Below are positions 5,866-27,384 of a DNA stretch of 39,536 nt, one piece after another. The stretch spans positions 1-39,536 of IMG/VR virus record IMGVR_UViG_3300042475_005351; one strand, given 5' to 3'. Below the pieces are notes generated by a model. The model was not told the DNA's origin. It ran no database searches and saw nothing but the letters and a program-made list of their open reading frames with translations. The DNA comes from a virus. The position numbers and the translations under genes were made by a program. How positions within the stretch are numbered: the stretch's first letter is position 1; each line of letters opens with the position of its first letter.

Positions 5866-6053
5866 TGACAATGATAGTTAAGAAATCTTTGAGCGCCCTT
5901 AGCTGTAGCGTTGTTCTTATTCTTTTGCTTAGATTTTAAAGCTCTAGCTTTTGCGCAGGTAACCTTACCTTTTACCTGACGCTTTAAGATTCCAGGACGA
6001 ACCGGGTCGTGAATAGACTTTTTTTCGTTTATGTATTCTTTTAGAGAGATCAT
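5862..6053 (-). CDS. Small basic protein with candidate capsid-targeting peptide
   Basis: A 63-aa, very basic protein (many Lys/Arg, two Cys), probably nucleic-acid-binding or disordered. The N-terminus MISLKEYINEKKS closely resembles the T4 internal-protein targeting peptide MKTYQEFIAEA: a Lys-x-Tyr/Phe-Ile-x-Glu core with Glu at 10. Cleavage after E10 by a gp21-type protease would release a 53-aa basic peptide. Its ATG overlaps the stop of the 413-aa gene by four bases (ATGA), so translation is coupled. No enzymatic family is recognised. Confidence 0.65.
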   Translation of the reverse strand: MISLKEYINEKKSIHDPVRPGILKRQVKGKVTCAKARALKSKQKNKNNATAKGAQRFLNYHCQ

Positions 6054-7291
6054 TTTAAAGATACTTGAACAGCTGGGCCATTTATTTTATCTTTAAAATC
6101 GATACTTGAAAATTTAAATTGTGGTATAAATTGCTCTAAATTATCTAGATTAAAAAATAACGACTCTTCAGGTGTAATGAATAATATATGTTTAAATGGT
6201 TCTGGTTTTTTAAGAAGCTCTTGTTTATAGTTAAAGAAACTCATACGGGCTATAGCATCAAATGCTTGTTGCCTGTTCATATTGTCAACACCAGGGAATA
6301 ATCGATCATATTCACTAGATGGTACAAACTTATATGTTTTGGTAATCATTTCTCGCATAAATTTATCTCCTAGGTTTTTACCTGGTAATATTTTATTAAG
6401 TATTTGAGCATGATCTAAAATGTTTATGCTTGCTTCACCTGAACGGCGAGTACCTGGTGTTGGGTTAGCAGTGAACATATTACTAGGTAGGATGAACCTA
6501 TTTCGATCAGGTAGGTTTTTTGGTATTTCTTTATACACTTCATTTTGAAGTAGCGGTTCACCAAAACTATCTTTACTATCTTTTAATCTACCACCACCGC
6601 TACCTAAAGATATTTGTCCTTTAACCTCAACCGGTAAACCACTTACTAGAAGATCTCCTTTTGTTGCAAAGGTTATTTGAGGTGATAAAAGAGATAATGA
6701 GACTTCTCCAGGGCCACGCGTACCAGCTTTTTCTCCAAAAGCATAACGAAAGACATCCATAATAAGTTCTTTACTAACAGAGCCATAACCCTTTATAAAA
6801 TTACTAGTAGGTTGTCTCCCTTCTTGTAATAATCTGTTTGTGTCGATGTAACTTACTTTACCATACATCTTTAAAAATTCCTCAATTTCATTTGTATCGG
6901 CTTGGGAATTAAGTAAAGCGTTTATAAGGGTTTGTTTATATATACCTTTTGCTGCTAAATGATCAACTTCAGGTTCTGTAAATTTCTTTTGCAACCAATA
7001 TGAAGGGTTGGTTTTAAATGTATCTTCTTTATACTCTTTTCCTTTTTTACCTTTAGGTAAAGGCTCGTCAACTACAACAAGCTTTTTATATATAGAGTTT
7101 ATTATTTCAGGATTCTCTTTCATTTTTTGTATAATGAAAGCCATTCTATCTTGATTTTTTAATCGTTGTTTATCGTCTTGCTCACAGACTAAACTATAAG
7201 ACTCAGACAGAGTACGAAAAGTAGATTTAGTTTTAGGTGCTTTATTGGCTAATAAAGAGTCGTAGATCTTATTGAGAAAGTAATCAGACAT
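6050..7291 (-). CDS. PD-(D/E)xK nuclease-like phage protein
   Basis: A 413-aa protein found at the head of the - strand run of small genes. Residues 194-236 contain the order GPGE (E196), GDLLVSG (D213), EVKG (E222-V-K224) and GGGRL, which fits a PD-(D/E)xK nuclease core: an early Glu, then D-x8-E-x-K. The N-terminal 40 residues are helical and contain LVCE (34-37), a possible protease-processing motif, and a Lys/Pro-rich segment follows (about 68-95). ATAAATA (7302-7308) ends 10 bp before the ATG. The nuclease call rests on motif spacing alone; a structural virion protein of unknown function is the alternative. Confidence 0.7.
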   Translation of the reverse strand: MSDYFLNKIYDSLLANKAPKTKSTFRTLSESYSLVCEQDDKQRLKNQDRMAFIIQKMKENPEIINSIYKKLVVVDEPLPKGKKGKEYKEDTFKTNPSYWLQKKFTEPEVDHLAAKGIYKQTLINALLNSQADTNEIEEFLKMYGKVSYIDTNRLLQEGRQPTSNFIKGYGSVSKELIMDVFRYAFGEKAGTRGPGEVSLSLLSPQITFATKGDLLVSGLPVEVKGQISLGSGGGRLKDSKDSFGEPLLQNEVYKEIPKNLPDRNRFILPSNMFTANPTPGTRRSGEASINILDHAQILNKILPGKNLGDKFMREMITKTYKFVPSSEYDRLFPGVDNMNRQQAFDAIARMSFFNYKQELLKKPEPFKHILFITPEESLFFNLDNLEQFIPQFKFSSIDFKDKINGPAVQVSLK

Positions 7292-7328: not shown

Positions 7329-7508
7329 ATGTCTTTTAATAGTCTTATACAGCAATACCTCGAAGAGAAGGCTGAACCTACAAAGGAAGACTATGAAGCT
7401 ATGCCCTGGAGTCTAGAAATTGTTAAAGATTCAAAGCGATCGGAAATGTATAATGAGCTAGGGGACCTCATTATTAAGCTTTTTGAGCTAAGATCTAGGT
7501 TAGAGTAA
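7329..7508 (+). CDS. Small acidic protein (59 aa) with N-terminal LEE motif
   Basis: A 59-codon frame starts at ATG 7329 and ends at TAA 7506-7508. TATAAATA (7315-7322) ends 6 bp upstream, the same arrangement as at longer genes, which supports it as real. The product is helical and acidic; its start (MSFNSLIQQYLEEKAE) has the layout of the candidate capsid-targeting peptides with hydrophobic-x-Glu at 11-13. It is divergent from the 413-aa gene and overlaps the end of the - strand 80-aa gene by 14 bp. Function is unknown. Confidence 0.6.
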   Translation: MSFNSLIQQYLEEKAEPTKEDYEAMPWSLEIVKDSKRSEMYNELGDLIIKLFELRSRLE

Positions 7509-7737
7509 CCGGTTCAGGTAAGGTCACAGTAGCTGGCATAGGCACAGAAGGGTTAGCCAAAGTACGAGACAGTTCCGGTACTTCTTGAGGCTGGGCAAAT
7601 TGAATCACCTGATTACTCTTTCTGCTATTACCCTTACGGCGATAACCTAAAATCATTACCTTACCGTCCTCGGTCTTCTGAAGAATGGGAACGAGACGGC
7701 CTTGCATTACTAATTTGTTAACTTTTTGTGGTGACAT
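7495..7737 (-). CDS. Small hypothetical protein downstream of tmRNA
   Basis: The 80-aa product starts MSPQKVNKLVM; the C-terminal third is Pro/Thr/Val-rich and probably disordered, and the middle is basic (YRRKGNSRKSN). I place the start at 7737 because a longer reading to 7845 would run through the 3' end of the tmRNA, including its acceptor and T-arm. It lies 16 bp downstream of the tmRNA 3' end and overlaps the small + gene by 14 bp at the stop. No family is recognised; it could have been co-acquired with the tmRNA. Confidence 0.5.
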   Translation of the reverse strand: MSPQKVNKLVMQGRLVPILQKTEDGKVMILGYRRKGNSRKSNQVIQFAQPQEVPELSRTLANPSVPMPATVTLPEPVTLT

Positions 7738-7753
7738 ATATTTTGTTTGAAAG

Positions 7754-8210
7754 TGGTGGAGGTGCCGGCCTACGATAGCCGGTTCCCTTGCAACGTACTC
7801 TAAAAGGTCTACATGTTTTAGTATCTTTAGCATTTCAGCCACCATACGGTAACGAAGACTTTAGGCTGCTTGGCGATACTAACCGAGTTTTTAGTCTGCC
7901 TATAGACATTATCGCAATCTATAAACGGTTGATATTTTGTTATTACATTAGAACTACCAACAATCTAATTCCCTCTGCTATCAATACAACCTTAGAGGAT
8001 CTGGTTATAAGGACCTTAGGCTGCTAAGAGCATTTCGTCTTCGATGCCAGCGAGGTACTCGTCAGCATTGTTGAAGATATGCTCGGCTTCAGCCAAGATG
8101 GAGTCAGTATTATCTGCTCTTAATTTTTTTAATCAGCTTTTAACGAGGCCAACTGATTAACCTCGACATGCGCTTTTAGATTCTGTTCCAGGTCGAATCC
8201 TTTCACCCCC
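7754..8210 (-). ncRNA. ssrA: Transfer-messenger RNA (tmRNA), phage-encoded
   Basis: All hallmarks of one-piece tmRNA are present on the - strand. The 5' GGGGGTG (8204-8210) pairs with CACCTCC (7758-7764), followed by A and encoded CCA (7754-7756). The D-loop region has GGATTCGAC (8192-8200). P2 pairs 8173-8180 with 7799-7806. Pseudoknot 1 is textbook: CGAGG/CCTCG (8161-8165/8144-8148) and an 8-bp second stem (8153-8160/8129-8136), with TTGGCCTCGTTAAAAGC between. Resume codon GCA at 8117 is preceded by TAAGA, retaining the conserved U and A at -5 and -4. The tag ORF ends LLAA-stop. tmRNA with SmpB and alanyl-tRNA synthetase rescues stalled ribosomes and tags products for proteolysis. At 457 nt it is long. 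Its T-arm has an 8-nt loop instead of 7. No smpB is seen in the window. Confidence 0.95.
8016..8117 (-). other. tmRNA tag-peptide reading frame (33 codons + stop)
   Basis: Resume codon GCA at 8115-8117, stop TAA at 8016-8018. The tag begins ADNTDSILAEAE, continues HIFNNADEYLAG and ends IEDEMLLAA; with the tRNA-borne alanine this is a 34-residue tag. Most bacterial tags have about 8-20 encoded residues. The C-terminal LAA fits recognition by ClpXP-type proteases. The last codons can form a small hairpin (CTTAG/CTAAG) around the stop. Confidence 0.9.
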
Positions 8211-8228
8211 ATAAATGTTAAAGATCTG

Positions 8229-8864
8229 TTAAAGCTTATACAATACTTTTGTCAAAGCATTATGTAAACTGTTGGTGCCTCTAATTGTATATCTAATTAG
8301 AGTTCTGTACCAGCTAAATTTTCTTAAAAACGAAACAATTCTTCTTGAAAGTTTTTTATTCTCTATGGCTCTTTTTTCAGCCCAGGTTTTATTATTTTTA
8401 ATTCTTTCGCTAATCGGGTCTTTAGTAACTTTAATAAGTTTAATTTCATCTAGTTTACCTTTAGTAAAGTAAGCTTCAAATTCAAACCACCAATCATAAC
8501 CCTGAATTAATTCAATATCATCCCAGGACATTTGCTCCGGGTCATCGCTAATCCAATCCCAATGATAATCATTATTGTCGGTATGAGTAGTATAGAAGTT
8601 AATTGTACCGTGAAAATCAACATCTCTCCATTCTTCTTTAATGACCTCAAAATACCCTTTTAAGAAAGCACTATCATCATCTTTCCATTCTCTTTCTTGC
8701 CAGAGATGACGAAGTTTACCGGATTTAGTAATCTCGTAAGCATCTAAAGCGTTGTCTAAATCTTTAGTTTGAAAGTCTAGTTCTTCCCAATTGACATCAA
8801 GAGCTTTAAGCTCTTTAGTTAACGGAAGCTTTTTCTTTATGTAGATGTGATCGAACATTCCCAT
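8229..8864 (-). CDS. Conserved phage protein, MGMFD N-terminus, unknown function
   Basis: A 211-aa protein starting MGMFDHIYIK, a start resembling a group of small phage and bacterial hypothetical proteins beginning MGMFD. The middle is rich in Trp, Asp and Glu (about residues 45-135, including YHWDWISDDPEQ and GYDWWFEFEAYF). The C-terminus is basic and helical (about 150-211). There is no signal peptide or catalytic motif I can name. It lies immediately upstream of the tmRNA on the same strand (18 bp), so read-through transcription of the tmRNA from this gene is possible. It is divergent from phoH. Confidence 0.65.
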   Translation of the reverse strand: MGMFDHIYIKKKLPLTKELKALDVNWEELDFQTKDLDNALDAYEITKSGKLRHLWQEREWKDDDSAFLKGYFEVIKEEWRDVDFHGTINFYTTHTDNNDYHWDWISDDPEQMSWDDIELIQGYDWWFEFEAYFTKGKLDEIKLIKVTKDPISERIKNNKTWAEKRAIENKKLSRRIVSFLRKFSWYRTLIRYTIRGTNSLHNALTKVLYKL

Positions 8865-21769: not shown

Positions 21770-23218
21770 TTAGAGGTATGTAGCTGCTTGACCAGGTACG
21801 AACGATTGGCCCAAGCCGGTGCAGATTACCATGTGATAGTAAAGTGAAGCACCGAAGATGTGGTCGACAACACCATAACGTGTTAATAGACCAACTCTTG
21901 GACTGAAGTCGTTAGGACCGATAGTACGCTGAACCATGACAGGGATATATGGGCAGTATACGATACCAGTATCGTAGTACTCTGGGCCCTTATAACCTAA
22001 CAGAGCGTAATCAACTGTTGTTGCGCGGCCTGCTGCATAACCAGCGTTTGCGTAACTTTGTGTTGATTGTGCTTCTGTGCGTGTGTCACGATAGATTTGG
22101 AAGCGGCCACCTACTGAACCAACCTTAGCGATACCGACAGGTGCTGTGTTAACAGAGCCTGTTACGGGCTGCCAGGTGAAGTTAGGAAGTGTCTCGAGGA
22201 TTGCGCAGATACGTGGTGTAGCGATGATGAAGTTAGCAGCGCCACGACGGTTGCGAACAGCAACGCGGTTAGCTTCAACAACAACTCTGTTGTAGAAGTC
22301 ACGGGCACGCTCACCTGACCAACGGCCGTCAGCTGAGATAGCTGACCATGTTGAATAGCCAACGCCAGCGCCAGCATTCAAGCATGTTTGGATCATACGA
22401 GCAATCATTTCACGGTCGATCTCAGCTTGAATTTCATATGACATAGCATTTGTTAATTCAGCGTCGATATCGATACCGTTCATGTTTCTTAAATCTTGTT
22501 CGAGTTCAACGGACCACTTAGCTGCGAGACGGCGTGTACCGGCTTCAACTGCGGTCTTTTCAAACGAAACAGTTACTTGAGGAATGTTTGAAGTTAATTC
22601 AAACTGTGAGAGAAGGGCTGCAACACCTGAATCTTCACCAACAACCGCGAAGGCTGAGTTACCGGAAAGAGCTGCACTGGATACACCTGTGAAGGATGTA
22701 TTCAGGTAGTTATAACCGATTTCTTTGCCTGTTACGTTTGCTTGGTTGTAGATTGAGTTAGCGGCTAAGCCGGAAGAATTACCGTCTGAACCGTTACTTG
22801 ATGTGCCAAGTGCTGAACCTTCATACTTGTAGCGCATTGCGAATGCTAAGCCAACAGGACCAGTCATAGGCTGTACACCAACGATCTCATTTGTGATGAG
22901 CTCAGGGAATGTACGGCGAATCATTGGGATGAGGACTTTTGGCAGACGTGCGTCACCAGTTGCGTAGGTATCGCGGTTAGGTACTGCGCCACCGTTGACA
23001 TTTAAATTGCCACCTGTAGCACTAAATACTGAACCGTTACCAGCTACGTTTGATGCTTCAAAGCACCACTTTTCTTGGTTCTCAAGAAGGATAGCGGTGT
23101 TCAAGCGTGTGTGTTCGTCTGAGATAGCTGCAACTTTGTCTGAAGTGTAATCCAATACTGGAGTCCACTTCTCAACTAAAGCTTCAGCTCTCGATTTATC
23201 GATATGTAGAAGTTCCAT
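21770..23218 (-). CDS. Major capsid protein, gp23-like
   Basis: The 482-aa product matches the T4 gp23 family: NEIVGVQPMTGPVGLAFAMRYKY, the MNGIDIDAELTNAMSYEIQAEIDRE helix region and GVVDHIFGASLYYHMV near the C-terminus. gp23 is made with an N-terminal propeptide removed by the prohead protease. Hydrophobic-x-Glu sites before the conserved body are L14-V15-E16 and L44-L45-E46; the latter is the better candidate. A strong ribosome site (AAAGGAG, 23232-23238) lies 13 bp before the ATG. The gene ends before the bidirectional terminator and follows the scaffold gene, the T4 gene order 21-22-23. Confidence 0.95.
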   Translation of the reverse strand: MELLHIDKSRAEALVEKWTPVLDYTSDKVAAISDEHTRLNTAILLENQEKWCFEASNVAGNGSVFSATGGNLNVNGGAVPNRDTYATGDARLPKVLIPMIRRTFPELITNEIVGVQPMTGPVGLAFAMRYKYEGSALGTSSNGSDGNSSGLAANSIYNQANVTGKEIGYNYLNTSFTGVSSAALSGNSAFAVVGEDSGVAALLSQFELTSNIPQVTVSFEKTAVEAGTRRLAAKWSVELEQDLRNMNGIDIDAELTNAMSYEIQAEIDREMIARMIQTCLNAGAGVGYSTWSAISADGRWSGERARDFYNRVVVEANRVAVRNRRGAANFIIATPRICAILETLPNFTWQPVTGSVNTAPVGIAKVGSVGGRFQIYRDTRTEAQSTQSYANAGYAAGRATTVDYALLGYKGPEYYDTGIVYCPYIPVMVQRTIGPNDFSPRVGLLTRYGVVDHIFGASLYYHMVICTGLGQSFVPGQAATYL

Positions 23219-26055: not shown

Positions 26056-26510
26056 AGGCCTAAATGTTTTTCGGTAAGAATAGTAAATTCGTAACCCTTC
26101 TTCTTGCACCATTGCTCGGCTGCCTGCCACTTAGCTCTGTTTTTTACGTACTCTGCTTGACGCCGTAATAGAGCTTTTGTATTCTTACCTGGTTTAGGTG
26201 GCTGAGTTTGAATGGAGGGTTTAATCTCTATAAGATACTTTTTAAATTCACCGTTTTTTGTTTTAAGTGTTATATTAGAATCAACAAAGTAACGAGATAC
26301 TTTTCCAGTAAGAGGATTTTGATAAGGTACTATAATTGATTCTGAGCCCCATGATATCACAGCAGGGTTGTGGTCACACCAGCGCATGAATTTGAGTTCA
26401 TAGGAAGATCTCCATAATATCGGAAACGTGCCTGCATATTTTTGAGGGTACACAGGCTTAAAGATGCCTTGTTTAAACTTTCGATTACGTTTAGGTCTTA
26501 TCGTGTTCAT
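26052..26510 (-). CDS. Head completion nuclease, gp4-like
   Basis: The 152-aa product matches T4 gp4 (gp50) head-completion proteins in length and motifs: RSSYELKFMRWCD (34-46, E38), RYFVDSNI (73-80, D77) and LIEIKP (93-98, E95-x-K97). Together these form a TnsA-like PD-(D/E)xK nuclease core. T4 gp4 is needed to finish packaged heads before tail joining. Its start overlaps the end of the HNH gene by 20 bp, and its stop overlaps the convergent membrane-protein gene. Confidence 0.9.
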   Translation of the reverse strand: MNTIRPKRNRKFKQGIFKPVYPQKYAGTFPILWRSSYELKFMRWCDHNPAVISWGSESIIVPYQNPLTGKVSRYFVDSNITLKTKNGEFKKYLIEIKPSIQTQPPKPGKNTKALLRRQAEYVKNRAKWQAAEQWCKKKGYEFTILTEKHLGL

Positions 26511-27384
26511 ACAATTTAAAAAGTTCCTCTTTAGTTATAGAGCATTGTTTATGTTTCTTTAAATTATCTTTTTGTTCAAGCATTTGTAAATTATATTTTG
26601 ATGCTATTACTTCACATGGTATTTTGTCTACAAAACCTTGTAATACACTATATTTGTGATCAATGTGATATAAACCAGAACCGAACCCTCTTTTTAGTTT
26701 TGTAGGGTTTATTATGTCTCTGTATTTTTTGTAAGTTTGTTGTGTTAGATAGGTTACCTCTGCTCTATAGTCTTTAAAAAGGGTCAATACTTCTCTTTGA
26801 TTTTTAAGTTTCATTGTTTGAGCTCTTCTTTTAAAAATTTTATTTTTTTCTTCTTCTGTAGCATTTTTCCACCATTTATGAGCCCCGGTTTCTAGTAAAA
26901 CGTTTTTAACAAATTTCTTTCTATCTTTTAAAGAGAGTTTATTTAACCAGCCAAATTTTTCTTTTCTTTCTTGTTCGGTTAATTTTGCAGCATTATTTTT
27001 TCTTGTATTAGAAATTTTTTTCCTAAACTCTGCTTTTTCTTGAGGTGTTCTATTAGCATGTTTGTTTTTTAAATTAGTTTTAACTTTATTAATATAAACT
27101 TGATATTTGTTTGAGTTGTTTTTAAGGTTTTGTTGATGCATTATACCCCCACATTTATGACTACAGGTTTTTTTATAACCATCTTTTATATTAATAAATT
27201 TAGTAACACCATTACATATAACACAACCACTATAACAATTATTTAAAATATACTGATCGTAATATTGTTGACTTGTTATTTTATGTTGATATTTTATATG
27301 CTTAGCAAAAGACAAAAAGTTTTTAAACTGCTGTTTACAAATACAGCATACAGGACCTACTTCTTGCGGTTCACAAATTAACAT
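26491..27384 (-). CDS. HNH-type homing endonuclease with zinc fingers
   Basis: A 297-aa, strongly basic protein. The N-terminus has a C2H2-like finger (C13, C16, H29, H34) and a second Cys cluster (C54, C57, C74, C78). The middle is Lys-rich with helical repeats. The C-terminal HNH core is HIDHKYSVLQGF (240-251), with N265 in SKYNLQ and N274 in KDNLKKHK. It is a free-standing, intron-less endonuclease of the sort that invades phage genomes by cutting a neighbour's sequence in endonuclease-free relatives. It overlaps the upstream gene by 7 bp and gp4 by 20 bp. Its lower GC and Lys/Asn-rich composition differ from its neighbours. Confidence 0.85.
   Translation of the reverse strand: MLICEPQEVGPVCCICKQQFKNFLSFAKHIKYQHKITSQQYYDQYILNNCYSGCVICNGVTKFINIKDGYKKTCSHKCGGIMHQQNLKNNSNKYQVYINKVKTNLKNKHANRTPQEKAEFRKKISNTRKNNAAKLTEQERKEKFGWLNKLSLKDRKKFVKNVLLETGAHKWWKNATEEEKNKIFKRRAQTMKLKNQREVLTLFKDYRAEVTYLTQQTYKKYRDIINPTKLKRGFGSGLYHIDHKYSVLQGFVDKIPCEVIASKYNLQMLEQKDNLKKHKQCSITKEELFKLYEHDKT

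Follow-up and report, generated by a model that had tools for sequence, protein, structure and literature searches.

The window analysed here is a virus contig of 39.5 kb, and positions 7754–8210 of it contain a one-piece tmRNA gene on the minus strand. The Rfam covariance model RF00023 matches 8210..7754 over the full model (1–374) with a score of 96.2 bits and an E-value of 1.8e-36; the gathering score of this model is 47 bits. A first-pass annotation, made from the sequence alone, had placed a complete phage-encoded tmRNA at exactly these coordinates, naming no strand, and had proposed the Infernal/Rfam search that gave this match. The features of the locus are as follows.

7754–8210, minus strand: one-piece tmRNA gene (ssrA), 457 nt including the encoded CCA; RF00023 match and conservation at the same locus in relatives
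8216–8226, minus strand: boxA-like leader motif GATCTTTAACA, 5 nt upstream of the mature 5′ end, of putative function
8204–8210, minus strand: 5′ acceptor strand GGGGGUG, which pairs with 7758–7764 and includes the G3-U70 alanine identity pair
8192–8203, minus strand: D-loop AAAGGAUUCGAC, the form that accompanies the UAUC T-loop
8129–8165, minus strand: pseudoknot 1 (CGAGG/CCUCG and UUAAUCAG/CUGAUUAA), with 7 pairs changed on both sides
8019–8117, minus strand: tag reading frame ADNTDSILAEAEHIFNNADEYLAGIEDEMLLAA, with resume codon GCA at 8117–8115 and stop codon UAA at 8018–8016; selection at the peptide level
7873–8009, minus strand: pseudoknots 2, 3 and 4, from the fold comparison
7765–7782, minus strand: T-arm CCGGC-UAUCGUAG-GCCGG, with a non-canonical 8-nt T-loop and compensatory T-stem changes in relatives
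7754–7764, minus strand: 3′ acceptor strand CACCUCC, discriminator A and encoded CCA

The elements that had been read from the sequence are all present, i.e. the paired ends, the encoded CCA, GGAUUCGAC, P2, the first pseudoknot, which precedes the in-frame resume codon, and the GCA codon itself. The 5′ acceptor strand is located upstream of the 3′ strand, thus the gene does not have the permuted arrangement of RF04321. The canonical UUCRANN T-loop, which is usual but not strictly defining for tmRNA, is absent and is replaced by UAUCGUAG (8 nt). Close relatives of the same gene have UUCRANN, and the kinship of the window gene with RF00023 tmRNAs is therefore not in doubt. An open reading frame at 7495–7845 was rejected as a coding overlap, as its N-terminus is tmRNA sequence and homology is conserved only from 7737 on, which is downstream of the tmRNA gene.

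The window encodes a gp23 major head protein at 21770–23218 (phrog_138, E-value = 6.7e-86), which identifies the virus as a T4-like phage, as had been proposed; PhoH and a prohead protease are also encoded. The nearest deposited gp23 proteins are of the cyanophage type and display about 33% identity, thus there is no close isolate, and deposited phages show no DNA match to the window. A wider set of 50 contigs, many of them fragments, includes 9 with a detected gp23. The psbA/psbD family is absent from 50 related contigs, which is not decisive on a cyanophage host. No Pfam or PHROG family was found for the neighbouring open reading frames at 8229–8864 and 6050–7291. A further open reading frame at 26491–27384 has cysteine/histidine motifs and the look of a homing endonuclease, with no Pfam match. 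The first-pass annotation considered tmRNA genes to be present in few phages and unusual in T4-like genomes. Phage tmRNA genes are indeed known, however they are less rare than supposed, as 402 of 18,146 phage genomes have one, among them marine T4-like phages whose tmRNA is two-piece (PMC9004378).

Nine related contigs were recovered by means of the upstream open reading frame of 211 residues, and the tmRNA is at the same locus in every one that reaches that far. Two further contigs with the tmRNA were recovered by means of the downstream open reading frame. In 13 aligned sequences the proposed fold, which has 72 pairs including the four pseudoknots, is paired in 95.5% of cells, versus 39%–51% for slid versions, and 31 of the 72 pairs show changes on both sides. 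The locus is kept, pairs change in a compensatory manner and the tag is under selection (see below); the window tmRNA is thus not decaying. A chance match or a pseudogene is rejected on account of the selection on fold and tag. The G3-U70 pair is found in 70 of 74 tmRNAs, and two of the remaining four are register errors of the fit. In four contigs (L347, L363, L367 and L375) the discriminator is U instead of A and the CCA is not encoded; a GIY-YIG-like open reading frame lies 35 nt downstream of the tmRNA in L367.

Of the 56 distinct upstream regions in the family, 53 contain the motif G[AT]TCTTTGA at a distance of 5–15 nt from the mature 5′ end; a slightly broader pattern occurs in 0.8% of random 30-nt windows. 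We take this leader motif to resemble the boxA of rRNA. Most UAUC tmRNAs with other tags lack it.

The tag of the window gene has 33 codons and ends in LLAA, as originally read. The number of acidic residues had been given as 11, but the count is 9 (4 D and 5 E), and there is no K or R. Selection was analysed with tags found through neighbouring genes, without use of the tag itself. In this set the variable sites number 15, 11 and 26 at the first, second and third codon positions (third-position excess, p = 0.0006), and dN/dS is 0.23, compared with 1.4–1.9 in the two wrong frames. A set of 63 distinct tag sequences gives a dN/dS of 0.155, which falls to 0.048 for the core alone; both values are biased downward because most of these loci were found by the tag. 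Constraint on the RNA alone, with an incidental peptide, would be conceivable since tag and RNA share one molecule. It has hardly any probability, as the variation is concentrated at third codon positions and no constraint is seen in the wrong frames.

A tag-alignment search shows that 102 metagenomic virus contigs of IMG/VR, of up to 218 kb, share the tag, and RF00023 genes are present in all 20 of the contigs sampled from this search (84–135 bits). Family tags are 33–35 residues long with a nearly fixed core, LAEAEYIFNNADEF, and have ends such as YLLAA, YALAA and YELAA. No match to the tag was found among 50,697 records of deposited phages. The most frequent length of known tmRNA tags is 10 (PMC11915505). 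This is apparently a large phage family with a conserved, unusually long tag which has been undescribed so far. Compared with the PDB, the tag gives a weak match (best 0.005) to a designed barrel, which was set aside; a predicted model has two helices (pLDDT 83) and is indicative only. Two of the tmRNAs found through neighbouring genes have a second type of tag, AKAITSAVEAVKSAWSNVVEFFAPEENYCLMAA in L122 and AKTNVKAILAKVKKAVNTITEFCLCDEMAPLAIAA in L238. This second type (AKAI..SAVEAVKSA..NV.EFF..CLMAA and relatives; L122:5654–6104, L238, L407 and L453) is of similar length and unrelated sequence. ARAGORN gives ADEELLLAA, of 9 residues, as the tag at L128:5855–6316, but by comparison this tag has 35 residues.

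ARAGORN was also among the checks proposed at the outset, and it reports no tmRNA for the window gene; as a check it would thus fail a true gene. Its misreading of long tags is likely systematic. ARAGORN has been used in earlier phage surveys, and since it missed most genes of the family or mis-set their tags, the number of phage tmRNAs is probably underestimated.

Few parts of tRNA-like RNAs are as conserved as the T-loop/D-loop elbow. Among 74 tmRNAs three elbow classes are found, i.e. a canonical D-loop with a UUCRA T-loop (46), an AAAGG D-loop with UAUC (18) and an xUAGA D-loop with GGCAG (8). The remaining two (L357 and L375) are mixed and have the AAAGG D-loop with a canonical UUCRA T-loop. 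In a tree of the central part of the molecule, from which the two loops were omitted, the T-type changes 11 times and the D-type 10 times. Joint change of D- and T-type is observed in 8 of 9 independent pairs and the opposite in none (p = 0.008); the two loop types are thus coupled.

The departure of the T-loop from UUCRANN, as first noted, is real; it is no blemish and represents a recurrent and structurally maintained class. The UAUCRUAN T-loop is present in at least 50 phage tmRNAs, both one-piece and permuted, with 12 different paired T-stems, and in relatives the stems differ by compensatory pairs (TCGGC/GCCGA, ACGGC/GCCGU, etc.). A scan for the UAUCGUAU T-arm gave 56 sites, and the stem is completely paired in nearly all of them. 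When 58 UAUC arms, including the UAUCGUAG cases, were sorted, 28 were one-piece, 22 were permuted and 8 were left unassigned. Permuted cases are confirmed by Rfam (RF04321 in L403, L433 and L457), as are one-piece cases with unrelated tags. A third class of T-loop, GGCAGNA, also exists. The odd T-loop, together with the failure of ARAGORN, might suggest a host-derived tmRNA that is decaying and has lost its T-loop consensus. This is extremely improbable, given the same loop in so many tmRNAs with compensating T-stems and the selection on fold and tag.

In a genome collection of 84,980 species the UAUCGUAG T-arm has 53 matches, none with a tmRNA D-loop, and a looser form of the UAUC T-arm was found in none of 398 cellular genomes from one phylum. 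A literature search gave no phage tmRNA with a noncanonical T-loop; an earlier description, e.g. in the tmRNA database, is possible. GOLLD RNAs (RF02032) are present on two contigs with UAUC tmRNAs (L402:6914–7296 and L433:2524–2979).

Among deposited phages, UAUC T-arms are found only in crAss-like relatives. The phage cr56_1 and its kin have the T-arm GGGGC-UAUCGUAU-GCCCC, and the 5′ piece, GGGGCUA-AACGGUUUUGACAGC, lies 622 nt downstream and matches annotated crAss tmRNAs. This apparent permuted tmRNA (L462; NC_055890.1, 6600–8400) is unscored by Rfam and missing from the annotation of the record. The intervening sequence contains an annotated endonuclease whose frame is interrupted by a stop under table 11 but not if TAG codes for Q.

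Bacterial tmRNA genes are known to contain group I introns, and such introns (RF00028) lie in the tmRNA T-loop of two family members, at L376:1843–2077 and L395:1825–2059. Genes for GIY-YIG, HNH or endonuclease VII proteins directly adjoin UAUC tmRNAs in L426, L413, L428, L412, L411 and L427. The new T-arms could have spread as alleles that resist mobile endonucleases or group I introns directed at the 3′ end of tmRNA, and not as elbows that work better. This concerns the elbow variation and not the identity of the RNA. The T-loop introns and flanking endonucleases make such an escape, also from nucleases, attractive, and cr56_1 has both the UAUC arm and the intervening endonuclease, where cr60_1, cr52_1 and cr115_1 have canonical T-arms. 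A known parallel is evasion of host nucleases by phage tRNAs with changes in the anticodon loop (PMC10264068). However endonucleases flank canonical tmRNAs too, less often and in an unmatched sample, and none is beside the window gene. The Pfam-based link between flanking endonucleases and the UAUC arm is suggestive, the UAUC and canonical samples not being matched, and resistance as the reason for the elbow variation is rather unlikely.

No SmpB or SspB was found in the phage contigs searched, which for SmpB were the window record, where the first-pass annotation had suggested looking, and relatives of up to 218 kb; host SmpB is therefore assumed to serve. The window gene very probably encodes a one-piece tmRNA that functions in a T4-like phage, is charged by the host and adds a tag ending in LLAA, with the 8-nt T-loop forming an alternative but working elbow. 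The gene, its fold, the selection on its tag and the coupling of the loop types follow from the analysis, and we infer the charging, SmpB binding, tagging and proteolysis, and the exact elbow contacts. The G3-U70 pair would allow charging by the host alanyl-tRNA synthetase, and host SmpB and EF-Tu would deliver the charged tmRNA to stalled ribosomes. Translation would resume at GCA with addition of a 34-residue tag (Ala and 33 encoded residues), and the LLAA end would direct the product to ClpXP-type proteases. A late supply of ribosomes or a different degradation signal, as first suggested, is plausible as the function.

The RNA could instead be charged or SmpB-bound and act mainly as an inhibitor of host trans-translation. 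There is precedent for tmRNA-like inhibitors in phages, e.g. a TLD-only molecule like that of mycobacteriophage DS6A (PMC11915505; PMC4131195), the variant elbow could alter handling by SmpB, and SmpB was not found in the phage. A decoy would need no tag, however, yet conservation extends to the tag frame, the resume site, the stop codon and the degron-like end, which makes inhibition as the main role improbable.

The canonical elbow has the pairs U54-A58 and G19-C56 and a contact between U55 and G18 (PMC7912444), and in known tmRNA the binding of SmpB depends on contacts between the D- and T-loops (PMC3968760). For a working elbow in the window tmRNA, UAUCRUAN may be read as U-A54-U55-C56-R57-U58-A-N. 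It would retain U55-C56-R57 facing the conserved GG (G18-G19) of the D-loop, the sole change being reversal of the closing pair U54-A58 to A54-U58. In GGCAGNA, C56 and purine 57 would be retained with G18 changed to A and U55 to G. The T-loop modification enzymes recognise the canonical 7-nt loop (PMC7912444), so the variant loops may be unmodified. Taken further, at least two elbows with matched D-loops, UAUCRUAN and GGCAGNA, may have evolved in phages, be unknown in cellular tmRNAs and swap repeatedly among one-piece and permuted phage tmRNAs, where the swaps may be due to an attack on the canonical T-loop by mobile endonucleases, introns or host nucleases, and the conserved 34-residue tag may go beyond a bare protease signal, e.g. 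as an adaptor-binding helix. This extended proposal is tentative, with the odds slightly against it.

The natural and repeatedly swapped elbow replacements, with their matched loops, offer a way to test which rules govern the elbow and SmpB recognition, and the conserved tag, by its length, suggests that the phage controls what becomes of rescued proteins. The phage tmRNA is of a known kind, and what is new is the conserved long tag and the alternative tRNA-like elbows. With the bacterial one-piece tmRNA (RF00023) it shares the G3-U70 acceptor, D-loop, P2, four pseudoknots, GCA resume codon and Leu-Ala-Ala type of tag end, and it differs in the family tag of 33–35 codons and, in part of the family, the non-UUCRANN T-loop. 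The OM43 phage Melnitz and the pelagimyophages are likewise T4-like aquatic phages with their own tmRNA, however these are two-piece, with a glutamine riboswitch in Melnitz, whereas the window tmRNA is one-piece with a boxA-like leader (PMC9004378). Mycobacteriophages Bxz1 and Wildcat and Bacillus phage G also encode ssrA and belong to other lineages (PMC4131195). CrAss-like phages have a permuted tmRNA, annotated in NC_055891.1 among others, which in cr56_1 and close relatives has the UAUCGUAU T-loop, but its gene is two-piece and the remainder is unrelated to the window tmRNA. Eukaryotic initiator tRNA likewise tolerates A for U at position 54 in a working elbow; there the pair is A54-A58 in a 7-nt loop, unlike the A54-U58 proposed for the window loop (PMC7912444).
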